A stretch of 64,000 bases of DNA from NCBI GenBank assembly GCA_021324355.1, contig JAJPJD010000049.1, positions 1 to 64,000 on the forward strand, in the 5' to 3' direction. Source of the DNA: Actinomycetota bacterium (GTDB lineage Bacteria > Actinomycetota > Acidimicrobiia > Acidimicrobiales > RAAP-2). The position numbers and the translations under genes were made by a program. Numbering within the stretch: position 1 is the stretch's first letter; each line of letters opens with the position of its first letter. Shown here one piece after another: positions 8,646 through 53,389 of this stretch. Below the pieces are notes generated by a model that saw only the letters and a program-made list of their open reading frames with translations, had not been told where the DNA came from and did no database searches.

Positions 8646-8873
8646 GGACCAGCTGGCCGGTCACCTCCGAGGCCGACGAGCTCGACGAGCGTTCAGGAAC
8701 CTCGGTCGGTTCGCGCCTCGAAGAGGAATGGGTGGGTCTCATGGACTGCGTACCGAGTTCTCTTCGAAGCGCGCCCCTGCGGCAGGGATGTCGATGAACC
8801 GGGCCGCAGCATCCTCGGGGCAACTCTGAACCGAAGGATCCGGCAGCAGGGCTACGGTGCAACGAGCGAATCG

Positions 8874-9999
8874 GTGCGCCGTTCATTGTGTGACGGCCGG
8901 TTGCCGACCAGCACGGATGGCAACGTACAGATCGAGGCCACCACCCCAACCGAGAGCGAGGGCAACCTGTTCCATTACACAAGCCGACAACGCTGGTCGG
9001 AGGGGCAAGTTGCCGGAACCTACCTTCCCCTGCCATCAGATTGTGGGTGCATCCCGCTGGCGTTCGGGCACCCAGGTGGCACCCGCCGCCACCCGGTGGG
9101 CCAAGGGGGCGCGCGATCTGGTCCTGCTGGTGATCGACCCCGATGCGCTCGCTGGCAGCATCCGGATTGCAGCAGGGCGTCCACAGCTGGTCGGCCCGTT
9201 GCCCTGCGAGGCGGTGCGCCTCGTGGTCGACTTCGCGCCACAGGCCGACGGCACCTTCATGGTGCCGGAGGAAGCCCGGCTGGCCGAGCTCGAACTGGGG
9301 GCCCCTCGCAGCGCGTCAGAGGCACTGGATCGGGCTCGCCAGGTGATGGAGGGCTTCGGCAGCCCGTGGTGGCTCGGCGGGGGTTGGGCGACCGACGCAC
9401 CCACCGGGGTCGTGAGCCGCGCCCATCTCGACCTCGACATCGTCATCCTCCGCCCAGACCTGCCCGTGCTCCATCGTCACCTGGCCGGCTGGGAGCTGCG
9501 GACCATGCAGGCCGGCACACTGCAGACCTGGGAGGGCGACCAGGAATCGGTCGGCCACCAGGTGTGGGCTCGACCCGACGACGGGCGGCGGCTCAGCCGC
9601 TGGCAGGACTTCGCAGCCGACCCCGGTTTTGTCGAACTGCTTGTCGAATGGGTCTCCGAGGGAGCCTGGACCTACCGCCGCGACCCGAGGGTCCGTGCTC
9701 CGCTGGCTCGGCTCGGTCGGCCAGGGGGGTTCCTCAATCCCGAGGTCGCGTTGTTGTACAAGGCGCCGGCCGCTCTGGACGATCGCTCGGTCACCTCCGG
9801 CAAAGCCCGGATGGACTTCGATCACGTGGTCGGTCACCTCGATCGAGATCAGCGCGCCTGGCTGGTTGACGCCCTGGAACGCTCGAGCCCTGGGCATCCG
9901 TGGATCGGGCGGCTCTCGGACTCGGCCTCAGATTCCGATTCGTGGTTCGAGCACCAGCAGTCTTGCGATCGAACACCGAGGCCGCACACGGCCGTCTGA
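8874..9999 (+). pseudogene. Frameshifted DUF952 - aminoglycoside-nucleotidyltransferase-like fusion
   Basis: Two frames must be joined to read this gene. In the first, a DUF952-like N-terminus runs LFHYTSRQRWSEGQVAGTY up to GCIPLAFGH. The family then continues one frame over as QVAPAATRWAKGARDLVLL and VIDPDAL, through VGPLPCEAV. One extra C in the run 9071-9073 explains the break. The same frame continues into an ANT(2'')-type nucleotidyltransferase-like domain with WWLGGGWATDAPTG, LDLDIVILRPDLP, WTYRRDPRVRAPL and NPEVALLYKAPA, ending at 9999. The start is uncertain (GTG 8874 or a TTG near 8907). A sequencing error would make this an intact fusion. Confidence 0.6.
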
Positions 10000-27576: not shown

Positions 27577-28353
27577 GTGAGTGGTGGACGTTTGGCCGGC
27601 AAGGTGGCCATCATCACCGGGGCCAGCCGTGGGCTCGGTCAGTACTGTGCCGTCGGGTACGGGCGGGAAGGCGCGAAGGTGGTGGTGGCCGCTCGAACCG
27701 AGCAGGTCCGCGACCCCAACTTGCCCGGCACCATCTACGAGACAGCCAAGCTGGTCGAAGAGGCCGGGGGCGAGGCCATGCCGGTGGTGTGCAACGTGGG
27801 GGATCCGGCCTCCATCGCGGCCATGGTCGAGCAGGTGCTCGCTCGCTTCGGCCAGATCGACATCCTGATGAACAACGCGGCGGTCCAGCCACCGGGCCGG
27901 ATCTCCGAGATCGAGCCCCGCCATTGGGAGCTCGAGTTCCGGATCAACGTGCATGGGCCGTTTCACTGCTCGCGGGCCGTGCTCCCCTCGATGATCGCAG
28001 CCAAGTCAGGCAACATCATCAACATCTCCTCGGTCGCGGCCCGGGGAGGGTCCCACTACGGGGCCACCAAGCGGGCGCTCGAGGCCTTCACGATCGGTCT
28101 GGCCGCCGAGCAGAAGGACAACGGGATCGCGGTCAACGCCTTGAAGCCGGTCGGCGCCATCGCCACCCCCGGCCTCCGCTACCGGGGGGCGGGCACCGCG
28201 CCGGTGGAGATCCGGGCCGACCTGCCGACTCCCGACAATTACGTGGAGGCCGCCATCTTGTTGGCGATGCAGACCCCGGCGTCGTTCACCGGCCAGGTCG
28301 TGAACGACGCCGAGGCGGTAGCAGCGCTCGGCGCCAAGGGTGCAGAGGCCTGA
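27577..28353 (+). CDS. SDR family oxidoreductase
   Basis: A 258-residue short-chain dehydrogenase. It has the cofactor loop ITGASRGLGQYCAVGYG, MNNAAVQPPGRIS (NNAG variant), catalytic Ser in NIISSVAAR-like context (INISSVAARGG) and YGATK supplying Tyr and Lys. The acidic/basic pattern VVVAARTEQVRD hints at NADP but is not decisive. GTG 27577 was chosen because GAAGGAGG lies upstream and the fold begins six residues later. The 3' end overlaps a convergent membrane protein gene by 115 bases. Confidence 0.9.
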   Translation: MSGGRLAGKVAIITGASRGLGQYCAVGYGREGAKVVVAARTEQVRDPNLPGTIYETAKLVEEAGGEAMPVVCNVGDPASIAAMVEQVLARFGQIDILMNNAAVQPPGRISEIEPRHWELEFRINVHGPFHCSRAVLPSMIAAKSGNIINISSVAARGGSHYGATKRALEAFTIGLAAEQKDNGIAVNALKPVGAIATPGLRYRGAGTAPVEIRADLPTPDNYVEAAILLAMQTPASFTGQVVNDAEAVAALGAKGAEA

Positions 28354-29387
28354 GCGCACAGGTTGGCAGGGGCTGGCCACGCCGCCCCACCTCCCACCCG
28401 GCGGACCTGCCGGCCGGGGAGCCGACGGAAGCGGCAGGTCAGGGGCCAGCCGGCCAGGGCCAGCAGGACCACCAGCGGCGCGGTGCCGACATCGGAGGCC
28501 CCGGGAGCAAGCGCCCCGCCCAGTTGCTGGCCCACCACCCACACGACGCTTGACACCACGATGGCCGCCGCGAGCGGGGCCCGCCGGTCCCGGGCCCTGG
28601 CCACAGCAGCGGCCGCCAGTGCCACCTCGACGGCCCAGAGGCCGATCAGCGTCCACGCGGGCCGGCTCAGCGCCAGGTGGGCTGCCGGCCTGGTGACCGC
28701 CTGCAGCCATCCTGGCTGTCCGAGCGACGCCTCCTCGACGTTTGCCCGGAGGACCTGGCCGGGCGGGTACACCCAGGGGAGCTGGAGCACCGCGCCGCCC
28801 GCCCAGTAGGTGACCCAGATGGCAGTCCACCAGCGACGGTCCACGTCGGCCCGACCGCCGCTCGGCCAGGCCAAGGCGCCCAGGGCGGCGTAGAGGACGG
28901 CCGGGCCGGGAGCTCCGAAGGGGAGCAGGGCGAACCCGGTGGGCAGCATGCCGAGGCCCTCCCCGGCCAGCCAGACCACCGCGCACCACCCCCATGCGGC
29001 CACCAGGGCCGGCCGGATCCAGCGGTCGGCCACCAGGGCCAGGCCGATCGCGCCCTGCAGCATCACGATCGCGAGGTTCCACCAGGGCCAGTGCGATCGG
29101 AACGGCGAGACCAGATCGAGCACGACCCGGCGCTCCCATCCCGGCGCGCCCATGATCGACTGGAGGAGCTCGGTGCGGGGGTACCCACGTCCGAAGTTCG
29201 ATGGCTCGGCCTGCACCAGGGCATCCAGCAGCCACAGGACCCCGAGCACCCGGCGGAGGGTCCGCCGACCGAGCAGCCGGGAAGCCGGCCACCCAGCGCG
29301 TGCTGCGGTGGCCGGCTCCGCCGGTGCAGCCGGCCGGGCGGCGCCGACGTTCCTGGTCGCAGGCCGCACTGGCGCGGCGGTGCTCAT
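28239..29387 (-). CDS. Polytopic membrane protein of unknown function in the tat operon
   Basis: A 382-residue protein with an Ala/Pro-rich N-terminus (about 1-35) and eight to nine hydrophobic helices, for example RRVLGVLWLLDALVQAEP and WNLAIVMLQGAIGLALVAD. The last 38 residues are antisense to the SDR gene and may be a non-conserved tail. I do not recognise the family. Its ATG overlaps the tatC stop as ATGA, so it is the last gene of the Tat operon and may be an accessory or quinone/redox membrane partner. Confidence 0.75.
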   Translation of the reverse strand: MSTAAPVRPATRNVGAARPAAPAEPATAARAGWPASRLLGRRTLRRVLGVLWLLDALVQAEPSNFGRGYPRTELLQSIMGAPGWERRVVLDLVSPFRSHWPWWNLAIVMLQGAIGLALVADRWIRPALVAAWGWCAVVWLAGEGLGMLPTGFALLPFGAPGPAVLYAALGALAWPSGGRADVDRRWWTAIWVTYWAGGAVLQLPWVYPPGQVLRANVEEASLGQPGWLQAVTRPAAHLALSRPAWTLIGLWAVEVALAAAAVARARDRRAPLAAAIVVSSVVWVVGQQLGGALAPGASDVGTAPLVVLLALAGWPLTCRFRRLPGRQVRRVGGGAAWPAPANLCAQASAPLAPSAATASASFTTWPVNDAGVCIANKMAAST

Positions 29388-30148
29388 GCCCGCCGGCGCA
29401 CCAACAGCCGGCCGATCAGGATCGACCCTTCGTAGAAGATCACCAGGGGGACGGCCAGGGCAACCATGGACAGCGGGTCTGAGCTCGGTGTCACCACGGC
29501 AGCCAGCGCGACCAAGGCGACGATCGCGTAGCGCCGCCACGATGCCAGCCGTCGGGGTGTGAGCACCCCGGCCGCCTGGAGCGAGACCAAGACGACCGGC
29601 AGCTCGAAGGTCAAGCCGAAGGCCGCCATCATGAGCAGGAGCAGCCCGATGTAGCTGCTTGGTGAGTAGATCTGGCGCAGTGAGGGCCCGCCGATGTGGT
29701 CGAGCCAGGCCATGGCGTGGGGGAAGATCGTGTAGGCGACCGCGCCGCCCCCGATGAACAGCACCAGCGAGGCGCCAACGAAGGTGAGGGTGAGCCTGCG
29801 CTCCCTGGCCCGGAGCCCAGGGGCCACGAACCGCCAGAACTGGAACAACAGGAGCGGGGAGGCCAGGACCGCGCCGCCGTAGGCGGCCACCTCGACCCGG
29901 ATGGACAGGCCGTCCAGTGGGCCGGTCACATACAGGGTGCAGGCCCGACCGGGCCCGACCGCGGCGCAGTAGGGGTGGACCAGCAGCGCGAGGACCCGGT
30001 CGAACAAGACAAAGACGACGACTGCGCCGATCGACACGCCGGCGATCGAGATGAGCAGCCGGCGCCGCAGCTCGGCCAGGTGCTCGGCCACCGTCATCCG
30101 CGCCGGGCCTCGGGCGCCGGTCACGCGGATGGGCAGACGCAGCGCCAC
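29384..30148 (-). CDS. tatC: Twin-arginine translocase subunit TatC
   Basis: A 254-residue TatC with six membrane helices and the family N-terminal motif MTVAEHLAELRRRLLIS (about 18-34), which contains the Glu that helps bind the twin-arginine signal. TatC with TatB recognises folded Tat substrates and recruits TatA. It lies six bases after tatB and overlaps the next membrane gene. In most actinobacteria tatA and tatC sit near proteasome genes; here it sits with exported ferritin-like proteins. Confidence 0.93.
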   Translation of the reverse strand: MALRLPIRVTGARGPARMTVAEHLAELRRRLLISIAGVSIGAVVVFVLFDRVLALLVHPYCAAVGPGRACTLYVTGPLDGLSIRVEVAAYGGAVLASPLLLFQFWRFVAPGLRARERRLTLTFVGASLVLFIGGGAVAYTIFPHAMAWLDHIGGPSLRQIYSPSSYIGLLLLMMAAFGLTFELPVVLVSLQAAGVLTPRRLASWRRYAIVALVALAAVVTPSSDPLSMVALAVPLVIFYEGSILIGRLLVRRRA

Positions 30149-30154
30149 GGCTCC

Positions 30155-30622
30155 TCAGCCCCGGGTGGTGTCGAGTCGGCCTGCTTCGCCGCCCAGGTCC
30201 GCTGCGTCGTCGGCGACCGGCTCGATCGGGGCGGCCGCCCGCACCAGCTGGGGCGCAGTGATCCCCAGGTCGATGCTGCCGGGAGGGAGGTCGACCTCGG
30301 TGCTGTCGGCCGCGCCGTGCGGCCAGGGGCGGGCGGCGTCGGCCTCGAGGCCGGCGGCCCGCAACAGCGCCTGCCGGGCGGCATCCGGACCGCCGAGCTG
30401 GCGGGTCGTGCCGACCAGCTGGCGGGCCTGGCGCAGCTCGTCGGCCAGCGGCAGGTCGCCGGCAAGGTGGCGGGCCTCGTCCTCGAGCGACGCCCGCAGG
30501 CGCTGCAGGTCCTTGAGGAGACCCCCGGCCCGTCGGGCCAGGCCGGGGAGCTTGTCCGGGCCGAGCACGACCACGGCGACCACGGCGACCAAGGCCAGCT
30601 TCAAAGGATCGAGCGTAAGCAC
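30155..30622 (-). CDS. tatB: Tat translocase TatB-type subunit
   Basis: A 155-residue protein with one N-terminal membrane helix (about 8-22), the hinge LGPDKLPGLARRAGG, an amphipathic helix and a long charged tail. This length is typical of TatB rather than the shorter TatA. It starts at GTG 30622, ten bases after the cupredoxin stop, and directly precedes tatC. Assignment to TatB rather than a TatA paralogue rests on length and pairing. Confidence 0.85.
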   Translation of the reverse strand: MLTLDPLKLALVAVVAVVVLGPDKLPGLARRAGGLLKDLQRLRASLEDEARHLAGDLPLADELRQARQLVGTTRQLGGPDAARQALLRAAGLEADAARPWPHGAADSTEVDLPPGSIDLGITAPQLVRAAAPIEPVADDAADLGGEAGRLDTTRG

Positions 30623-30632
30623 GGGGCCACCG

Positions 30633-31088
30633 CTAGCGGACCGTCACGGTCCCGGTCATGAACTGGTGAATGAGGCAGCGGTAGGGGTAGGTGCCGGGCT
30701 TCTCCGGCGCGGTCACGGTCCGGGTCCTCCCAGGCTCGATGTTCCCGGTGTTGAACGCCCCACCGTCGGCGGTGAAGGTGTGGGTCACCGAGTCCCGGTT
30801 GACGACCGTGATGGTGGCGCCGGGTCGGACGGTGAAGTTGGCCGGCTGGAACGCGAAGTTCTGGATGGTCACCAGCTGGTGGACGGCCGGCCGGGTTGCG
30901 GTCGTGCTGGCGGGCGAGCCGGAGGAGCCGCCGCTGCAGGCGCTGAGGACGGCCGCCCCGGCGAGCAACCCACCGACCAGGCGAGCGACCAGCCACAGGG
31001 TGGGTCGACCACGCACCGGCCGGGCCACGGCGTGCTGCTCGGCTGCCAGTTGGTCGAGCGCCGGCGATCGTTGTGCTCGGGCAGACAT
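30633..31088 (-). CDS. Cupredoxin (blue copper) lipoprotein
   Basis: A 151-residue protein. After a 30-residue basic N-terminus comes a signal helix ending in the lipobox LSAC (Cys51), a Ser/Thr linker and a plastocyanin-like domain. The copper ligands are all visible: His103 in VTHTF, then Cys138, His141 and Met144 in YRCLIHQFM. It should be an extracytoplasmic electron carrier or copper protein tethered to the membrane. AAGGGGACGTG precedes the ATG. It lies between ferritin-like genes and tatB in one operon. Confidence 0.87.
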   Translation of the reverse strand: MSARAQRSPALDQLAAEQHAVARPVRGRPTLWLVARLVGGLLAGAAVLSACSGGSSGSPASTTATRPAVHQLVTIQNFAFQPANFTVRPGATITVVNRDSVTHTFTADGGAFNTGNIEPGRTRTVTAPEKPGTYPYRCLIHQFMTGTVTVR

Positions 31089-31171
31089 CACGTCCCCTTC
31101 TGTGGTCGTTGGCCGTCGTGCCTGCCGGCTCGGCGGCCGGGGGGTCGACCGTCGAGCCGGCAGGCGAGGGT

Positions 31172-31996
31172 TCAAGAGACGGCCGAGCTGGTCGGGTTGA
31201 AGGCCAGCGGGGTGCCCGAGGAGTCTTGGACCCCGGGGTACTGGCCCAGCACGAAGTACAGGATCGCAGCGTGCTGCATCTCGACCGGCTGGATGGTGGC
31301 CGCCGTCGCGATGGCCTTCTTGCTGTGGAGCTTGGTCGACTGGACCTGGTAGGTCTGTGCCGCCACGTTCTCCAGCTCGAGGGCCAACTGGGCCAGACCG
31401 GTGATGTCGGTCACCTTGGCGAACGCCTGCTGCACCTTGGGGGTGAGCGCCGGCTCCGTCACCGTGACGGCCTTCTTCTTGGACGCGGTGAGCACTGCGT
31501 TCCACGCCGCCGCGTGGTCCATGTGCTGGGACTTTGCGGTCTGGGCGAAGGTCACCACCGCTGGCGGCACCGAGCCGAGCTTGCCGGCGGTGGCTGCTCC
31601 GATGCCGGCGTTGTAGGCGAAGACCGCCAGGTTCTCCAGGCTGGCCGCGAGGGCGGCCACCGCGAGGTCCCCGGAGAGGCCGGCGATCCCGCCCTGGGCA
31701 TTGGGGGGGTTCGAGGCTGCCGATGCGCTCGCGACCTTGGAAGCCGCCGCGGCCAGGCCGGGATTGCTGGTCGCTGCGACCAGGGCCGCTCCACCGGCCA
31801 GCACCCCGGCAGCGCCGAGGAGGAAGGTCCGGCGTTCGGTGGTGCGGGGAGCGTCGGCGCGCAGATCCTCCGCCCACTCGTCCAGCGCGGCGTGCAGTGC
31901 TGGCATGCCCACGTCATGGTGGAGCTCGTCCAGCTCGGTGGTCATCCGGGCGATCTCCGCCTCCGATGCCGCCATCTCGCGCTTGCGGAATCTCAT
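31172..31996 (-). CDS. Tat-exported ferritin-like domain protein (1)
   Basis: A 274-residue protein. A 50-residue charged N-terminus precedes a Tat-type signal, ERRTFLLGAAGVLAGGAAL (Arg55-Arg56), followed by a ferritin_2-like four-helix domain. Probable metal ligands are Glu121 (SLENLAVFAY), His158/His161 (QHMDHAAAW), Glu207/Glu209 (ELENVAAQTY) and Glu239-x2-His242 (EMQHAAIL). Such proteins are linked to desiccation or oxidative stress but are poorly characterised. The ATG at 31996 overlaps the upstream paralogue's stop. Confidence 0.85.
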   Translation of the reverse strand: MRFRKREMAASEAEIARMTTELDELHHDVGMPALHAALDEWAEDLRADAPRTTERRTFLLGAAGVLAGGAALVAATSNPGLAAAASKVASASAASNPPNAQGGIAGLSGDLAVAALAASLENLAVFAYNAGIGAATAGKLGSVPPAVVTFAQTAKSQHMDHAAAWNAVLTASKKKAVTVTEPALTPKVQQAFAKVTDITGLAQLALELENVAAQTYQVQSTKLHSKKAIATAATIQPVEMQHAAILYFVLGQYPGVQDSSGTPLAFNPTSSAVS

Positions 31997-32868
31997 CGAA
32001 CTGCTCCTTGTGCCTTCGGGGCTGCGTTGTTGGTCGGGTAGAAGGAGTGCGGGAACCCCACGCTGCCGGCGGCAGCGGGGAGCGAGGCCACATCGCTCGT
32101 GGACAGGGTGATCAGCTGCGGAGCGTTTGCCTGCAGCAAGGCTTGCACCGCCAACAGCACGGCAACGTGCTGCGCCTCGACACCCATGATGCTGGCCGTC
32201 ACCCGCTTGGCATTGGCGTTCTTGAGCGATGACATGTCGTTGACGTAGGTCTCGGCGGCGATGTTCTCGAGCTCGAGCGCAAGACTCACCACGCCGAGCA
32301 TCCCCACCGACGGTGTGGCGCCGGAGAGGCCGGAGACCGCCTTGTTGACTACCGGGACGAACGCCGGGTCGGGCTTGGTCTGCTTTTTGCCTCCGAGTCT
32401 GCGGACGGCGGCGTTGAAGGCGGCCAGGTGCTGCGCGTGCTGCGACTTGGTCACCTGACAGAACTTCTTGACCACCGGATTGGCCGACGAGCCCCCGATG
32501 TAGGGGAGGGTCAGCGCGGTGCCGTAGGTCGAAACCGCGAGCGTCTCGATCGAGGCCGCGGTCTGCAGCATCTGGATATCGGCAGAGGAGGCGGCGTACG
32601 CGGGTGAAGCGAGCAACGACACCAATGCCGTCCCACCGGCCGCGGCCAGGATCCCCGCGCCGGCGAGGCTCCGCTGGAGCGACCGGCGGTGCTCCTCGGC
32701 AAAGCGGCGATTCTCCTGCTCCTCATCATCCGAGGCGCACTCAGTGGTTCGGTGGCCGCTGAGCTCGACGAGCTCCTCCAACGGCTCCTTGGTGCCTCGG
32801 ATCGCATCGGCCTGGAGATCCTGGGACTCTTCGAAGAGCTCGGCCAGATCTCGAGGGTCTGCACTCAC
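31993..32868 (-). CDS. Exported ferritin-like domain protein (2)
   Basis: A 291-residue paralogue of the next gene. A 58-residue acidic N-terminus precedes HRRSLQRSLAGAGILAAAGG (Arg61-Arg62) and a cleavage-like AYA at 90-92. Ligand candidates are Glu108 (SIETLAVSTY), His144/His147, Glu199/Glu201 (ELENIAAETY) and Glu231-x2-His234 (VEAQHVAVL). The twin Arg is less canonical than in its paralogue. It is the first gene of the minus-strand Tat operon; GTG 32868 has AAGGAGG upstream. It diverges from the ECF sigma gene. Confidence 0.84.
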   Translation of the reverse strand: MSADPRDLAELFEESQDLQADAIRGTKEPLEELVELSGHRTTECASDDEEQENRRFAEEHRRSLQRSLAGAGILAAAGGTALVSLLASPAYAASSADIQMLQTAASIETLAVSTYGTALTLPYIGGSSANPVVKKFCQVTKSQHAQHLAAFNAAVRRLGGKKQTKPDPAFVPVVNKAVSGLSGATPSVGMLGVVSLALELENIAAETYVNDMSSLKNANAKRVTASIMGVEAQHVAVLLAVQALLQANAPQLITLSTSDVASLPAAAGSVGFPHSFYPTNNAAPKAQGAVR

Positions 32869-33086
32869 GGTCGCCTCCTTGCGCTCGGGGCTTCATGTCG
32901 TCGAGCGGTTCTTCGGAGCGGTGGCTCGACCGGATGTCGTCACCTCTGACCGGCGGCAGAACAGTGACTTCGACGGGCGATGCGGACCAGGAGCGGCCCC
33001 CGGGAACTAATCTCGCCAATAGGCATCCAACGCGGTCGGCACGACGAAGACCGGTTGCACCGCTCGACCGCACCTCGGAGCGACCG

Positions 33087-33653
33087 ATGGAAGACCTCGA
33101 AGAGCTTGGCGACGCCCAGGTGGTCGTCCTCGTCGGCCGCTACGACGAGAGGGCCTTTGCCGAGATCTACCGCCGGCACGGCCGCTCCGTCTACGGGCTC
33201 GCCCGACGCATCCTCGGTGACGCCACCGAGGCCGAGGACCTGACGCAAGAGGTGTTCCTACGGCTGTGGCAGAACCCGGCCGGGTTCGATCCAGCCCGGG
33301 GGACGCTTCGGACCTACCTGCTCACCCAGGCGCACGGTCGCGCTGTCGACACCATCCGCTCCAAGACGGCGAGGGCCAGGCGCGAGGAGCGGGACGCCCG
33401 GTCCACCGCGACCGCCTCCTACGACCTCGAGCGCGAGGTGTGGGACCTGGCGATGGCCGAGCACGTGGCCGGGGCCATGGAGGCATTGCCACCCGAAGAG
33501 CGGGCTGCGATCGATCTGGCGTACTTCGGCGGCCACACCTACCGCGAGGTCGCCAAGCTGCTCTCAGCCCCCGAGGGGACCGTGAAGAGCCGCATCCGCA
33601 ACGGCCTGCATCGGATGAGGTCCATGCTGGTGGAGGGAGGAGTGCCCCGATGA
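33087..33653 (+). CDS. ECF RNA polymerase sigma factor (SigK-like)
   Basis: A 188-residue sigma-70 family factor. Region 2 contains AFAEIYRRHGRSVYGLARRI and AEDLTQEVFLRLWQNPAGF. Region 4 contains LPPEERAAIDLAYFGGHTY and the helix-turn-helix APEGTVKSRIRNGLHRMR. ATG 33087 with GGAG upstream was chosen; upstream in-frame starts add a disordered Arg-rich segment. Its stop overlaps the anti-sigma start as ATGA. The natural prediction is that it drives its own promoter and the divergent ferritin/Tat operon. Confidence 0.9.
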   Translation: MEDLEELGDAQVVVLVGRYDERAFAEIYRRHGRSVYGLARRILGDATEAEDLTQEVFLRLWQNPAGFDPARGTLRTYLLTQAHGRAVDTIRSKTARARREERDARSTATASYDLEREVWDLAMAEHVAGAMEALPPEERAAIDLAYFGGHTYREVAKLLSAPEGTVKSRIRNGLHRMRSMLVEGGVPR

Positions 33654-34504
33654 CCGCGGCCGGCGAGCACCATCGCCTGGTTTCCGAACTGCTGGGGGCG
33701 TTCGCGCTCGACGCCGTGGACGGCGACGAGGCTCGGATGGTGGAGCAGCACCTGGAGGAGTGTCCTCGGTGCCGCTCCGAGGTGGACCAGCTTCGTGAGG
33801 TGGCGGCGGCGATCGGCAATGCGTCCGAGCGCCCGCCCGATTCGTTGTGGGAGCGGATCGCATCGCAGCTCGGGGACGTGGCCGCCCAGCGAGCCCGTCC
33901 GGCGCCGGTGATCGACGGACCGCCCTCTGCTGGGATCGGGGCTGGCGCGTCGGGCCTTCAGGGGCCGACCGGCTTCCGCCCGAACCGCAGCGTGCGGCGG
34001 ACCAACGCACGCAGGGCGGCCCGTCGGCCGTGGGCGGTCGCCGGGATCGGCGCCGCCGCGGCCTGCGCGGCCTTGGCTGCCATCTTCGGTGTCGGCTGGT
34101 CACACGCCAACGAGCGAGCCGGCCAACTGCAAGCGACACTGGCGGAGCGGGGTGCCGCCGCCGCCGTGCAGGCTGCCCTGGTCAGTCCGGGGCATCGCGT
34201 CGTCGTTCTGCAGTCGAGCACCGGCGCCCGGCTCGCCGAGCTGGTGGTGCAGGCCAACGGCGTGGGCTACGTGGTGAGCTCGCACATGGGAGCACTGCCG
34301 GGGGACGAGACCTACCAACTGTGGGCGGAGATCGCCAATCAGCCCATTTCTCTCGGCCTGCTCGGGTCGAGGCCCGGGATGGGCGACGCGTTCTCCCTCG
34401 GCCCGTCGATCAGCGATGCCCGTGCCCTGATGGTGACGGTCGAGCCGGCGGGCGGCGTGGTCACACCCGATCGCACGCCGGTCGCGACCGGGACGCTGAG
34501 CTGA
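33650..34504 (+). CDS. Anti-sigma factor, RskA family
   Basis: A 284-residue membrane protein. The cytoplasmic N-terminus carries the zinc-associated anti-sigma motif HLEECPRC (His/Cys/Cys, about 34-41), followed by a linker, one membrane helix (WAVAGIGAAAACAALAAIFG, about 125-145) and an extracytoplasmic RskA domain with PGDETYQLWAEI and LGSRPGMGDAFSLG. It should hold the upstream sigma factor inactive until a signal outside the membrane triggers release. GGAGGGAGG lies upstream of the ATG. Confidence 0.9.
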   Translation: MTAAGEHHRLVSELLGAFALDAVDGDEARMVEQHLEECPRCRSEVDQLREVAAAIGNASERPPDSLWERIASQLGDVAAQRARPAPVIDGPPSAGIGAGASGLQGPTGFRPNRSVRRTNARRAARRPWAVAGIGAAAACAALAAIFGVGWSHANERAGQLQATLAERGAAAAVQAALVSPGHRVVVLQSSTGARLAELVVQANGVGYVVSSHMGALPGDETYQLWAEIANQPISLGLLGSRPGMGDAFSLGPSISDARALMVTVEPAGGVVTPDRTPVATGTLS

Positions 34505-34625
34505 CCCTGGCCGGCTCCGGCCTGGTTGGGTCCCGCATTCCCCCGGCGGCCCGGCGCGGTCAGCCGCTCGACTGCGCCGAGCTTGTCGCGGCCGAGGGGC
34601 GCGACGACGCCAGTGGTCCGGTCGC

Positions 34626-35027
34626 CTACGAGGGTCGCCGGTCGGACCAGGCCCGGAGGCCGGCTCGCACGGCAACGGTCGCGGCGAGGACGATCACCCC
34701 GGCCTCGGCCGCGATGGCGACCCACCCGGCCGCCGAGACGCTGGGCTCTTTGAACGCAAAGATCCCGTGGGGGAGGGCCAGGCTCAGGACGTAGCCGCCC
34801 AGCACCCCGGCACAGAACATCCCGGCCGCAACGAGGGCGGCCGCCGCCGGCCGCACGGCGACCAAGGCCGCCAGGGCCGCTGCGACGACCACGGTGACAA
34901 GGAACAGCCACCCGATGGTGGGGATGAAGCGGTAGCCGCTCGCAAGGTAGAGGTCAAGGTGTACCGCACCGACCGCCAACAGCAGCGCGCTGGTTGCCCA
35001 GGCGGCGGCTCGCTGCGTCCAGGGCAT
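34626..35027 (-). CDS. Small four-helix membrane protein of unknown function
   Basis: A 133-residue protein that is almost wholly hydrophobic, with four predicted helices, beginning with AAAWATSALLLAVGAVHLDL. The pattern VGAVHLDLYLASGYRFIPTIG recalls actinobacterial membrane proteins of unknown role. It lies six bases after tatA in the same direction and may share its transcript. It faces the anti-sigma gene. No function can be assigned. Confidence 0.72.
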   Translation of the reverse strand: MPWTQRAAAWATSALLLAVGAVHLDLYLASGYRFIPTIGWLFLVTVVVAAALAALVAVRPAAAALVAAGMFCAGVLGGYVLSLALPHGIFAFKEPSVSAAGWVAIAAEAGVIVLAATVAVRAGLRAWSDRRPS

Positions 35028-35033
35028 GGACCG

Positions 35034-35231
35034 CTACGCCGCCGGGGGCTTGCCGGCTCGGTCGGCCGTGAGCTCGTGGGTCGGACCGGGCTCGTCCAGT
35101 CCCGCCTTGAACTCCCGCTTGGCCGATCCGAGGGACCGGGCGAGTCGGGGGATCTGCGAGCTGCCGAACAGGACGGCCAGCACCACGACCAGCACGATGA
35201 CGCCGTCGATACCGAAGATCTCTGCCAGCAT
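35034..35231 (-). CDS. tatA: Tat translocase pore subunit TatA
   Basis: A 65-residue protein with an N-terminal helix (VIVLVVVLAVLFGSSQIPRL), the conserved FG hinge, an amphipathic helix ARSLGSAKREFKAGL and a short polar tail, the standard TatA architecture. TatA oligomers form the translocation channel. It begins at ATG 35231 with AAAGGAA upstream. It is about 3.8 kb from tatBC, but within the same locus flanking the sigma/anti-sigma pair, and completes a local TatABC set. Confidence 0.9.
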   Translation of the reverse strand: MLAEIFGIDGVIVLVVVLAVLFGSSQIPRLARSLGSAKREFKAGLDEPGPTHELTADRAGKPPAA

Positions 35232-35296
35232 GTCGTTCCTTTCCTTTCCTTGGTTCAGTTGGTCCGGCCGAAGCCGGAGGATCGCCCGCTGGGCGC

Positions 35297-36091
35297 TCAG
35301 GTGGCCCGCTCCACGGCGCGCTGGACTGCCCGCTCGAGGAGCCGCAGGCCGCCGAGGCCGGGGATCCGATCGATCTGGCGGTCGACACGCTGCGCGGCGG
35401 CCAGGCCGGCGTCGTCGCCGAAGAGGTAGCGGGCCAGGAAGCGGACTTCGGCTTTGGGCATGACGCCGGCGCCGACTGGCCGCCAGAACCACTGGAGGGC
35501 TCGCCGGGTGACCCGCCGGGCGGCCGGGTCCGACTCCAGGCGCCGCCTTGCCTGGGACGCGTAGAAGTCGATGTGGCGGCCCTCTTGCTTCATGATCCGT
35601 TTGAGCAGGTCGGTGAGCACCGGGTTCTCGGCCCGGGCGGCCAGGCGGGCGTAGCCAGCCTGGGTGGTCAGCTCGTTGATGGCGCCCCAGGTCATGTGGA
35701 CGGTGACCAGGTGCCGGGTAACAGCCGAGGTGAAGAGGTACAGCAGCGGCCGGAAACGATCGGTTCGGGGCAGCTGCCGTCGAAGGGTCGCCACTCGTTC
35801 CGGCCCGGCCGGCTCGTGGTGGGCTTCGAGGACCTGGGCGATGGCGTCGCCGTGCCAGTGCTCCTCGTAGCACCAGGTCGCCAGGAAGGCGGTGACGTCC
35901 GGGTCGGTGTGGGCCCTGGTCACGAGCAGGTCCCGGAGGTAGCACATGGTGTGGCTCTCGATGTCGTGCATGTAGCGCAGGCAGCGCAGCGCCCCAGGGT
36001 CGAGGGGGTGGTCCGCGAAGGTCGCGAACTCGATGCCGTCGAGGTCCAGCCGTGCGGAGCGACGAACCAGGGTGTCTGTCGCAGTCGTCAC
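35297..36091 (-). CDS. Ferritin-like diiron four-helix-bundle protein
   Basis: A 264-residue protein showing the full E...ExxH...E...ExxH pattern of carboxylate-bridged diiron enzymes: Glu45, Glu77-x2-His80, Glu140 and Glu170-x2-His173. It resembles acyl-ACP desaturase or AurF-type oxygenases in layout, but the substrate cannot be deduced. GTG 36091 was chosen because upstream in-frame starts would run through the divergent ArsR operator. It is just upstream of tatA on the same strand (65 bases). No signal peptide is visible. Confidence 0.78.
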   Translation of the reverse strand: MTTATDTLVRRSARLDLDGIEFATFADHPLDPGALRCLRYMHDIESHTMCYLRDLLVTRAHTDPDVTAFLATWCYEEHWHGDAIAQVLEAHHEPAGPERVATLRRQLPRTDRFRPLLYLFTSAVTRHLVTVHMTWGAINELTTQAGYARLAARAENPVLTDLLKRIMKQEGRHIDFYASQARRRLESDPAARRVTRRALQWFWRPVGAGVMPKAEVRFLARYLFGDDAGLAAAQRVDRQIDRIPGLGGLRLLERAVQRAVERAT

Positions 36092-36235
36092 AGCTGTTCT
36101 TCGGAGCCTGGGTCGGGCCCGGATGTCCTCGCGCCCGCCGTGGTGGTCATCGTTCGACGGCGCGGGCTCGGGTCCGCAGGGTCCGCCCAGCAGGTGCCTG
36201 GCCGGGTCAGAAGAGCGGGGCATTCTCACAAAAAT

Positions 36236-51919: not shown

Positions 51920-53389
51920 TCAGAAGCTGATCGCGGAGAGCTCGGGGATGGTCCGCAGGGCCCGGCTCCGCGCCTCCAGCCAGCGGGCCCGCCAGGCCTC
52001 CCGCTGCGCGTCGGTGCGGGTCGGCTCGACCGTGCGGCCCGGCCGATAGGCGGTGGCCACCTCGTCTTCGTCCGCCCACACGCCGACCGCCATCCCGGCC
52101 AGGTACCCGGCCCCGAGCGTGGTCGCCTCGAGGGTGGCCGACAGCTCGACCGGCCGGCCGATGGCGTCGGCCAGCGCGCCCACGAAGATCGGGTTGGCCG
52201 ACATCCCTCCGTCGACTCGCAGCGAGGCGATGGGCAGGCCGCTGTCCGCCTCGGCCGCTTCCACCAGGTCGGCCCCCCGCTGAGCGACGCCTTCGAGGAC
52301 CGCCCGGACCAGCGCCGCCCGCCCGGTCCCCCGGGTCAGCCCGAACAGGGCGCCGCGGGCCCCGAAGTCCCACGCCGGGGTGCCCATCCCGAGGAGGGCG
52401 GGGACGAAGATCACCCCCTCGGTGTCGGGGCAGCCGGCCGCGACCTCGGCCGAGCTGGCGGCGTCGGGGAGCACGCCCAGGTCGTCGCGGAGCCACTCGA
52501 TGCAGGTGCCGGCGGTCAGCATCATTGCCTCGACCCCGAAGACGCTGCGGCCGCCCCGCCGCCAGGCGACGATAGGGAAGGTGCCGCCCGGGCTTCGGTC
52601 CAGGGCTTGGGGGGCCCGTGCCCCGGTGCACTGGTCGAGCATCCCCCCGGTGCCGAAGGTGGCCTTGGCCAAGCCCGGCCTGGTGCAGCCCTGCCCGACC
52701 AACGCCGCCTGCTGGTCGCCGGCCAGCGCGCCGATCACCGGCGCGCCGGGGAGGGCCTGGGCCGGGCCGATGGGCCCCGAGGTGTCCACGATGGCCGGCA
52801 GCATCGAGGGCGGGATGGCCAGGGCGTCGAGCACCCGTTGGTCCCAGCGGGACCCGGTGGGGTCGCTGAGCGCGGTCACCGCGGCGTTGGTCGGGTCGGT
52901 CACGTGCAGCCGGCCTTGGCTCAGCACCCAGGCGCACCAGGTGTCGACCGTGCCGAAGCACAGCTCCTCGGCGGCTCGCTCCCGACGGGGGTCGACCTCA
53001 TCCAAGATCGCGGCCAGCTTGGTGGCCGAGGCGTTGGGCGGGAACCGGAAGCCCTCGGCCTGCATCGCCAGGCAGGTGCCGACGGTCCGCAGGTCCTGCC
53101 AGCCGAGGGCCGGACCGACCGGCCGGCCGCTGGCCCGCTCCCACACCAGCGTGGACGCCCGCTGGTTGGCGATGCCGACCGCGTCGATCTGGCCGGCGTG
53201 GCTGGCGAGCGCCGACGCGGTCGACAGGATCGCCTCGGCGATCGCTGGCGGGTCCAGCTCGACCAGGCCCGGCGCCGGCGAGCGGGGGAGGACCGCCTGG
53301 CGGCGGACCGAATGGACCGTGCCGTCGGCCTCGACCAGGGCCGAGCGCACGGCCGAGGTGCCGACGTCGACGACCAACACCGGGCTCAT
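51920..53389 (-). CDS. FGGY-family carbohydrate kinase, glycerol-kinase-like
   Basis: A 489-residue sugar/polyol kinase. The phosphate-binding start LVVDVGTSAVRSALVEADG, GIANQRASTLVWERASG with WQDLRT (as in GlpK), KATFGTGGMLDQCTG and LRVDGGMSANPIFVGALAD are present. It probably phosphorylates glycerol to glycerol-3-phosphate, given glpD two genes upstream; another polyol is possible, since the GTS start differs from the usual QGTTSSR of GlpK. The ATG overlaps the flavoprotein stop as ATGA. Last gene of the operon. Confidence 0.85.
   Translation of the reverse strand: MSPVLVVDVGTSAVRSALVEADGTVHSVRRQAVLPRSPAPGLVELDPPAIAEAILSTASALASHAGQIDAVGIANQRASTLVWERASGRPVGPALGWQDLRTVGTCLAMQAEGFRFPPNASATKLAAILDEVDPRRERAAEELCFGTVDTWCAWVLSQGRLHVTDPTNAAVTALSDPTGSRWDQRVLDALAIPPSMLPAIVDTSGPIGPAQALPGAPVIGALAGDQQAALVGQGCTRPGLAKATFGTGGMLDQCTGARAPQALDRSPGGTFPIVAWRRGGRSVFGVEAMMLTAGTCIEWLRDDLGVLPDAASSAEVAAGCPDTEGVIFVPALLGMGTPAWDFGARGALFGLTRGTGRAALVRAVLEGVAQRGADLVEAAEADSGLPIASLRVDGGMSANPIFVGALADAIGRPVELSATLEATTLGAGYLAGMAVGVWADEDEVATAYRPGRTVEPTRTDAQREAWRARWLEARSRALRTIPELSAISF

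Follow-up and report, generated by a model that had tools for sequence, protein, structure and literature searches.

Gene content of the locus

The genes considered here (Table 1) lie in a window of 64,000 nucleotides, the whole stretch of DNA that was analysed. Six of them, ferB-ferA-cupredoxin-tatB-tatC-mem, form one minus-strand unit, which is divergent from a pair of genes for an ECF sigma factor and an RskA-type anti-sigma factor; beyond this pair is a further unit, diiron-tatA-4TM. All the genes named in the first-pass annotation are where it had placed them, as Pfam matches confirm (TatC, TatA_B_E, Cupredoxin_1/Copper-bind, two to Ferritin_2, Sigma70_r2/r4, and zf-HC2 with RskA_C). Starts were chosen for mem (29387), the cupredoxin (31088), sigma (33087), anti-sigma (33650), tatA (35231) and diiron (GTG, 36091) genes, the last of these coinciding with the end coordinate given in that annotation.

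Table 1 Genes and candidate promoter motifs of the locus, with the evidence for each.
Feature	Positions	Strand	Evidence
mem, polytopic membrane protein	28239..29387	-	ORF; 4-base overlap with tatC
tatC2 (second TatC)	29384..30148	-	PF00902 4.4e-60; TIGR00945 above cut-off
tatB2	30155..30622	-	PF02416 3e-7, above cut-off; best NCBIfam match tatB, under its cut-off
Cupredoxin lipoprotein, type-1 copper ligands H..C..H..M	30633..31088	-	PF13473 1.3e-12
ferA, Ferritin_2 protein with Tat signal (ERRTFLLG)	31172..31996	-	PF13668 5.4e-15
ferB, Ferritin_2 protein, candidate ligands E/HxxH/E/ExxH, degenerate signal	31993..32868	-	PF13668 1.1e-14
SigK-like promoter motif, ferB-ferA-cup-tatB-tatC-mem unit	32912..32936	-	motif search
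SigK-like promoter motif, sigma/anti-sigma	33024..33048	+	motif search
ECF sigma factor	33087..33653	+	Sigma70_r2/r4; best NCBIfam match SigK subfamily, under its cut-off
RskA-type anti-sigma factor	33650..34504	+	zf-HC2 + RskA_C
4TM, four-helix membrane protein	34626..35027	-	ORF; window copy without Pfam match
tatA2	35034..35231	-	TIGR01411 8.8e-12, under its cut-off; PF02416 above cut-off
Diiron protein, distantly acyl-ACP-desaturase-like	35297..36091	-	invariant ligands; GTG start
SigK-like promoter motif, diiron-tatA-4TM unit	36100..36125	-	8 bases to diiron GTG start

The local and the housekeeping Tat genes

That a complete TatABC set is encoded here, as first proposed, is borne out by profile matches in the window. 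tatC2 belongs to the TatC family by both profiles listed in Table 1; for its TatA and TatB partners the PF02416 matches (30473-30601 and 35100-35213) lie above the cut-off and the TIGR matches under their own cut-offs, and the TatA/E profile match runs from 35034 to 35240 on the minus strand. A search of the genome for another tatABC found a second tatC, tatB and tatA elsewhere, the housekeeping tatB-tatC pair adjoining a DEAD/DSHCT helicase gene and the housekeeping tatA adjoining the cytochrome oxidase genes COX1/COX2. The local TatABC is therefore a second translocase, and this part of the proposal that it is a specialised second translocase stands. Across 11 genomes compared, each with a module TatC and another TatC, the helicase adjoins the non-module copy in 10 (the sole miss, L082, being at a contig end), and it adjoins none of the 12 module copies.

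The ferritin-like pair and its signals

Both ferritin-like proteins score well above the curated Ferritin_2 cut-off (56.2 bits for ferA and 55.2 bits for ferB, against 24.7). Beyond family level, Foldseek returned only generic ferritin-like matches for either protein (bacterioferritin and Dps among them), all with E above 0.001, while profile searches against solved structures gave no convincing match for ferA and only 2fzf, at 0.0015, for ferB. The candidate metal ligands, read from the sequence and the predicted helices, depart from the canonical E, ExxH, E, ExxH diiron pattern in both cases: in ferB the six positions of the set E/HxxH/E/ExxH are invariant in 54/54 sequences, the second helix having HxxH rather than ExxH in every one, and in ferA the residues E, H, E and E/DxxH are conserved in 13/13.

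The first-pass annotation had the metalloproteins exported by the local Tat, which looks too broad, as a canonical twin-arginine signal is present only in ferA among the proteins of the locus and the diiron protein is apparently cytosolic. In ferA the residues R55, R56, F58 and L59 (RRxFL) are invariant in 13/13 aligned sequences, and among 75 ferritin pairs an RR-x-hydrophobic motif is present in 73 ferA proteins (61 in the strict form), as against none of the 75 ferB proteins for the strict form and 22 for the loose one; some of the ORFs in this count are over-extended upstream, so that the loose count includes a few false hits and the strict count may lack a few true ones.

The cupredoxin, diiron and membrane proteins

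The signal of the cupredoxin, as read from the sequence, is of lipoprotein type, with an LSAC lipobox and without RR, and the type-1 copper ligand pattern occurs in 54 of the 55 cupredoxin ORFs counted. For the diiron gene Pfam gives only a below-threshold match to FA_desaturase_2, yet all 16 of the aligned sequences keep the ligands E, ExxH, E, ExxH; against solved structures the protein matches DesA2 (PDB 1za0, E 1.6e-5), with a designed helix bundle ranked higher. No signal peptide is visible in its sequence, and it is apparently cytosolic. Neither 4TM nor mem of the window matched a Pfam family. Of 11 aligned mem sequences, two (the window copy not among them) match DoxX_3, with a best E of 0.0029, suggesting that mem is at most very distantly DoxX-like; in an alignment of 14 4TM sequences H23 is invariant, the consensus being GYRHIPTIGPLF.

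The sigma/anti-sigma pair and a shared promoter motif

The sigma factor has ECF regions 2 and 4 and is SigK-like, and its gene adjoins that of the zf-HC2/RskA_C anti-sigma factor; it scores 167.4 bits against the NCBIfam SigK model, for which the cut-off is 226, so membership of the SigK subfamily is not secured. De novo motif discovery yielded CATCC-N15-17-CGAA, which appears to resemble the SigK promoter consensus, and which precedes all three units of the window. Five hits occur in the 64 kb, where 1.45 would be expected, and three of the five are those just upstream of the three units. In 27 non-redundant sigma-divergent regions (thinned from 44) the exact motif is present in 15, whereas 200 random sets gave 0.45 on average and never more than 3, the count being made in the same regions from which the motif was discovered. 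The 12 regions without the exact motif include L143, which has the closest module TatC to that of the window, and that of Ferrithrix (L044).

A motif before all three units would put tatBC, tatA, the cargo and the sigma factor under one switch. The picture in other module loci is mixed: in L158 motif sites precede four units (sigma, diiron, cupredoxin-ferritin and tatABC), the exact motif was not found in the G363 and L148 loci, and only some module loci have a clear site ahead of their tat genes. As to the earlier suggestion that the module has its own sigma/anti-sigma pair, the pair itself is present, and its control of the module gains support from the motif common to the three units.

Recurrence in relatives

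The ferritin pair, often together with the cupredoxin and the sigma/anti-sigma genes, recurs across the class, which judged by the named carriers is Acidimicrobiia. Among cultured carriers, Ferrithrix thermotolerans DSM 19514 has the ferritin, cupredoxin and sigma/anti-sigma genes, and in Aciditerrimonas ferrireducens MV1 a TatA/B-type gene adjoins the pair. A tatC adjoins the pair in other families of the class, so that the arrangement does recur in relatives; in G380, for instance, the order is sig-asig-cup-4TM-ferB-ferA-tatA-tatB-tatC-diiron-mem, all on a single strand. The grouping of tatC with the ferritin genes is not a matter of chance, because the genome has a further tatC, tatB and tatA at other loci and because the pairing recurs in other families. 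The case in which these would be the only tat genes, in an order not conserved, is ruled out by the second tat set and this recurrence. That the window simply holds the housekeeping Tat beside unrelated genes can be regarded as extremely improbable, since the other tat set lies with the helicase and the cytochrome oxidase genes and the neighbourhood recurs in relatives.

Strict dedication of the Tat system to this cargo, in contrast, gains no support: tatC was found beside the pair in just 11 of 80 loci (the best 80 of 112 confirmed loci, some on contigs that end early). The cargo therefore does not need a local tatC, and apparently gets by in many cases with the housekeeping Tat. Seen from the side of the translocase, two near-full-length TatCs occur in 12 of 394 genomes of the class (completeness at least 80, that of the window included). 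Ferritin_2 genes are found in 7 of these 12, compared with 31/198 genomes of a draw made earlier and overlapping with this one. Five of the 12, each from a different family, have their second tatC within 1.6 kb of a ferritin gene; the other seven second TatCs have no demonstrated ferritin neighbour, and five of those genomes have no Ferritin_2 match.

Origin of the module TatCs

On the TatC tree the 12 module TatCs occupy seven places, five of them beside the housekeeping TatC of the same or a related genome, and an AU test rejected a single clade of module TatCs (p 1.8e-7); a single module TatC lineage is ruled out by these two results. Rows L087, L088, L089, L096 and L097 were dropped from the tree, and L132, L120, L136, L116 and L139 also from the later tree that gave the seven places (long branches, fragments or thinning in each case); the truncated module TatCs L153 and L214 were left out, as were L164, L197 and L219, taken to be from the same genomes as G363, G380 and G323. 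The tree suggests that a duplicated Tat was probably recruited to the ferritin locus several times.

An alternative is gene conversion, in which one ancestral module Tat was repeatedly overwritten by housekeeping tatBC, so that the many TatC origins would be only apparent. The order ferA-tatA-tatB-tatC is common to two families (f16 and f61), several module TatCs lie beside rather than inside the housekeeping clade of the host family, as an old conversion would also give, and some 40-residue windows are near-identical in the closest pairs (0.95 in G103 and 0.90 in G426). However, in most of the 11 pairs of module and other TatCs (overall identity 0.52-0.83) the differences are spread along the protein, no identical tracts were seen, and gene order and strand vary between lineages, although they do so within one TatC lineage too; an ancient conversion seems unlikely, if worth keeping in mind.

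Another idea is that the extra Tat serves all cargo alike as a general-purpose dosage copy, in the cluster by chance and with no specialisation. Two Glu and one Asp (at E15-, E103- and D211-like positions, which we take to be functional, signal-binding residues of E. coli TatC) are kept in all the module TatCs, and these three checked positions are identical in both types (12/12 module, 64/64 housekeeping), so that specificity may overlap. The idea likewise accommodates the absence of tatC from most of the clusters found (among the best 80 of 112 loci), and the case of G424, where no TatC besides that of the module was found. Against this, the same locus has been occupied repeatedly from separate TatC lineages, and promoter motifs are common to the units; recurrent placement combined with shared motifs is hard to explain without a functional link, and a mere dosage copy seems unlikely.

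Proposed function

Taken together, the gene content, the shared motif and the recurrence suggest that the locus probably encodes a sigma-controlled, cargo-linked second Tat translocase. An extracytoplasmic signal would release the sigma factor from RskA, and the freed sigma would then activate three units: its own, ferB-ferA-cup-tatBC-mem and diiron-tatA-4TM. Envelope stress, first suggested as the trigger, gains no support from these findings. TatA2B2C2 would export ferA, already folded and metal-loaded in the cytoplasm, with the weakly signalled ferB perhaps hitch-hiking with it, and a private Tat would spare the housekeeping Tat from competition during the burst of cargo. Outside the cell, the two ferritin-like dimetal proteins would have the cupredoxin as their electron partner, and their likeliest role would be oxidation or detoxification of a metal or peroxide; Fe(II) as the substrate is a guess, made because the cluster occurs in acidophilic iron-cycling isolates. 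The Tat part would be an add-on to an older ferritin/cupredoxin/sigma module, gained several times through duplication of the host tat genes.

A bolder version, to be held only tentatively, treats the ferritin/cupredoxin locus as a hot spot at which Acidimicrobiia may independently have captured a duplicated Tat about seven times, placing it under the SigK-type switch of the cargo; this cargo would be a new extracytoplasmic dimetal pair (E/HxxH/E/ExxH) plus a type-1 copper lipoprotein, with ferA carrying ferB through the private Tat. If true, host Tat copied repeatedly beside the same cargo would amount to a natural replicate experiment, allowing one to ask what trait of a cargo needs a private exporter and which changes in TatC and TatB follow. 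More generally, the locus draws attention to a metalloprotein system outside the cytoplasm, uncharacterised so far, in Actinobacteria with acidophilic, iron-cycling isolates among them.

Comparison with known systems

The SigK-like sigma factor adjoining an RskA-type anti-sigma factor is reminiscent of mycobacterial SigK-RskA, and the motif found here appears to resemble the SigK consensus. The mycobacterial SigK-RskA regulon includes mpt70/mpt83, unlike the present locus with its ferritin-like pair, cupredoxin and Tat.

The first-pass annotation did not recognise the unit as one already described, and this holds in part. A cargo-linked second Tat is already known in kind, from Bacillus phoD-tatAdCd, whereas the combination of ferritin-like cargo, ECF control and recurrence was not found described; a literature search using exact term combinations found no description of the unit, which is weak evidence of absence. 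About 5% of species had more than one tatC, some of these loci arising through internal duplication and some being in Actinobacteria, according to the available text of Simone et al. 2013 (PMC3827258), which links none of them to cargo outside Bacilli and describes none in a ferritin or ECF setting.

The question whether Tat becomes specialised for its cargo has been addressed mainly in Bacillus. In the portions available of PMC3068169, B. subtilis TatAyCy with YwbN/EfeB ties Tat to iron chemistry outside the cytoplasm and involves a lipoprotein partner, but TatAyCy is constitutive and mainstream and its cargo a haem peroxidase, where here it would be ferritin-like. The closer parallel is B. 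subtilis phoD, which lies upstream of tatAd-tatCd, all three genes being induced by phosphate starvation (PMC3068169 and PMC6708511, in their available portions). As there, judging from the genes alone, a second Tat is encoded beside its candidate cargo, here ferA with its RR signal; unlike TatAdCd, the present system would be a three-component TatABC, recruited repeatedly, controlled by an ECF sigma of SigK type and serving a ferritin-like cargo.

Organisation and recurrence of the module

The module (see table) is a genuine second Tat system that recurs in relatives, is tied to a sigma factor and has ferritin-like cargo; its tat, ferritin and sigma genes are genetically linked. Only two Ferritin_2 matches exist in the genome concerned, G000, and these are the ferA and ferB genes of the window.

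Layout of the module in the window
Feature	Position	Strand	Remarks
ferB, ferA, cupredoxin lipoprotein, tatB, tatC, mem (polytopic membrane protein)	32868 down to 28239	minus	neighbours overlap or stand no more than 83 bases apart
ECF sigma factor	33087-33653	plus	divergent from ferB unit
RskA-type anti-sigma	33650-34504	plus	divergent from ferB unit
diiron gene	start 36091	minus	third unit, with tatA and 4TM, beyond anti-sigma
tatA	start 35231	minus	third unit
4TM (four-helix membrane protein)	end 34626	minus	third unit

In a class-wide draw, Ferritin_2 occurs in 31 of 198 genomes, 23 of which have two or more matches, in every case with at least two adjacent. When 394 genomes of the class with completeness of 80 or more (G000 included) were surveyed for TatC, two or more matches were seen in 21; closer inspection confirmed a pair of near-full-length copies in 12 of them, and fragments or weak matches in the rest. 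Seven of the 12 contain Ferritin_2 genes, with no Ferritin_2 match in the other five, and in five genomes from five families (G000, G323, G363, G380 and G036) no more than 1.6 kb separates the second tatC from a ferritin gene. G380 carries the full set on one strand, in the order sigma, anti-sigma, cupredoxin, 4TM, ferB, ferA, tatA, tatB, tatC, diiron, mem. The neighbourhood picked out in the first-pass annotation recurs in relatives. In G103, one of the remaining two genomes with Ferritin_2 genes, the second tatABC adjoins sigma, anti-sigma, 4TM and cupredoxin genes at a contig end, and the ferritin pair opens a different contig (L081 and L043 being the two involved); in G354 the second tatC is away from the ferritins.

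A scan of named genomes using a ferB alignment gave 112 relatives, of which the best 80 were kept; 32 of these 80 are titled as Acidimicrobiia taxa (including Ferrithrix thermotolerans, Aciditerrimonas ferrireducens and a Ferrimicrobium MAG), 42 only as Actinomycetes, Actinobacteria or Actinomycetota, and 6 as something else. Among these best 80 of 112 loci a ferritin gene was found in 80, cupredoxin in 54, sigma in 45, anti-sigma in 43, 4TM in 15, diiron in 14, TatA/B in 13, mem in 12 and tatC in 11, all lower bounds as contigs are often short. On these counts the ferritins, cupredoxin and sigma/anti-sigma pair look like the core of the module, and Tat looks like an addition made in a minority of loci.

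Two side observations concern individual records. Cultured Aciditerrimonas ferrireducens MV1, in whose genome one TatC was found, has mem, ferB, ferA, a TatA/B-type gene and 4TM at L178:1807-6337, with no local tatC. Three ferB records titled Candidatus Saccharibacteria or Acidobacteriota (L145, L152 and L160) group with actinobacterial copies, as does the TatC of L152, and are possibly mislabelled bins.

A second translocase and its origins

Contig 42 of the G000 assembly (2.445 Mb, 64 contigs, 96% complete) carries another full TatC and a TatA/B-type gene next to a DEAD/DSHCT helicase, with a gene of the Pup ligase family in the same stretch, and on contig 61 a TatA-type gene adjoins COX1 and COX2 genes; the proposal that the local TatABC is a second translocase is thereby borne out. 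Where module and other TatC copies were compared, the helicase adjoins the other copy in 10 of 11 genomes (the exception, L082, lying at a contig end) and none of 12 module TatCs; at 15 further tatC loci it is present in 8 and absent from 7 (L085, L087, L088, L089, L091, L097 and L244), while G162 has it at both tatC loci, making it a good but imperfect marker of the housekeeping tatC. The one TatC found in G424 is the module copy, perhaps because of an incomplete assembly. The second TatC of G212 (L089:9273-10259) is extremely divergent (branch over 6), and few likely genes surround it; it is possibly of contaminant or organelle-like origin.

Module copies are scattered in all three TatC trees calculated (34, 59 and 76 rows), and in the largest well-supported branches force the 12 into seven places.

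Places of module TatCs in the 76-row tree
Place	Members	Support and neighbours
1	window, G421	100/98
2	G380, G425 (98/91)	inside clade with family f61 copies (100/99)
3	G363, G422, G427, G424 (99/89)	beside family f16 copies (together 100/100)
4	G036, family f31 copies	99/94
5	G103, own other TatC	100/97
6	G426, own other TatC, a family f49 copy	96/94
7	G323	no firm place

A tree that holds all 12 in a single clade is worse by 399.5 log units and was rejected (AU p 1.8e-7). The module label nonetheless clusters more tightly than random labels do (1 of 500 shuffles gave so low a value), as would be expected if a gained copy was then inherited. In a ferB tree (58 rows, quick method) the 13 tat-bearing loci are likewise scattered, with 9 changes, at least 7 of them forced by starred branches, some of the loci scored as lacking tat being short contigs. 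Identity between module TatC and the other TatC of the same genome is 0.52-0.83 (11 pairs), rising in 40-residue windows of the closest pairs to 0.95 (G103) and 0.90 (G426). Repeated ancient conversion of a single old module copy is a less probable reading of these data; repeated recruitment of Tat to the module by duplication fits best.

Cargo signals and metal sites

That twin-arginine cargo lies beside the tat genes holds for ferA; the signal of ferB is degenerate. R55, R56, F58 and L59 are invariant among 13 aligned ferA proteins, and over 75 ferA/ferB pairs (named loci plus window; some ORFs over-extended) an RR-x-hydrophobic-hydrophobic motif is present in 73 ferA, 61 in strict form, with a lipobox following in 44; the corresponding ferB counts are 0 strict and 22 loose. 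From these signals ferA is predicted to be a clear Tat cargo, often a lipoprotein (the window copy is not of this type), and ferB may travel along with ferA, via Tat with a degenerate motif, or via Sec. The export specificity of the module Tat is something that we infer.

E108, H144, H147, E201, E231 and H234 are kept in 54/54 ferB sequences, so that HxxH appears here in place of the first ExxH motif known from ordinary ferritin-like sites; ferA keeps E121, H158, E209 and H242 in 13/13, with E or D at position 239. AlphaFold models of the two ferritins are helical bundles (mean pLDDT 78.7 and 75.4), for which Foldseek returned generic ferritin-like folds only, none at E of 0.001 or less. The apparently cytosolic diiron protein, which resembles mycobacterial DesA2 (E 1.6e-5), keeps E33, E65, H68, E128, E158 and H161 in 16/16, and type-1 copper ligands are kept in the cupredoxin of the window and in 54/55 cupredoxin ORFs from sampled loci. 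The chemistry of the module is to be taken as putative.

Promoter motif

When spaced pairs were enumerated across the regions that separate sigma from the gene divergent to it, the motif CATCC-N15-17-CGAA emerged, which resembles what we take to be the mycobacterial SigK consensus. By a count over the same regions that yielded it, 15 of 27 non-redundant regions carry the motif, where 200 random sets gave 0.45 on average and never more than 3; among the 12 that lack it are those of L143, whose module TatC is closest to that of the window, and of Ferrithrix (L044). The window has 5 sites against 1.45 expected, three of them a short way upstream of the ferB unit, the sigma unit and the diiron unit. 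Elsewhere the motif precedes the sigma, diiron, cupredoxin-ferritin and tatABC units (L158), both divergent units, one with tatC (L041), the diiron gene that begins a run with tat genes (L192) and the sigma gene that begins its run (G380); the loci of G363 and L148 gave no exact site. The inducing signal is likewise putative.

The remaining two window sites, on the plus strand outside the module (8810-8835 and 52385-52408), are either chance occurrences or regulon members. At the G036 locus, where no sigma gene was found, a short gene matching an anti-sigma profile (L041:2691-3095) directly precedes the divergent tatC.

Comparison with known systems

No description of the module was located in the literature searched, preprints and most subscription journals lying outside that search. 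Its closest working analogue is the cargo-linked Tat of B. subtilis, phoD-tatAd-tatCd; a further analogue is Staphylococcus tatAC, which adjoins an iron-dependent peroxidase. For the B. subtilis genes, cargo upstream of its own Tat and joint induction are reported (PMC3068169, PMC6708511), and Simone et al. give two or more tatC for about 5% of species, some Actinobacteria included (PMC3827258). Within the present class, the second TatC of G354 (9155-9943 within L091:3102-15327), without a helicase, is flanked on one side by a phosphate-type ABC uptake set that includes PhoU and on the other by an alkaline phosphatase of the PhoX type (PF05787, 2.4e-28), which begins MGQLDRRRFLALG and has an RR signal; this is another cargo-adjacent second Tat, and recalls phoD-tatAdCd.
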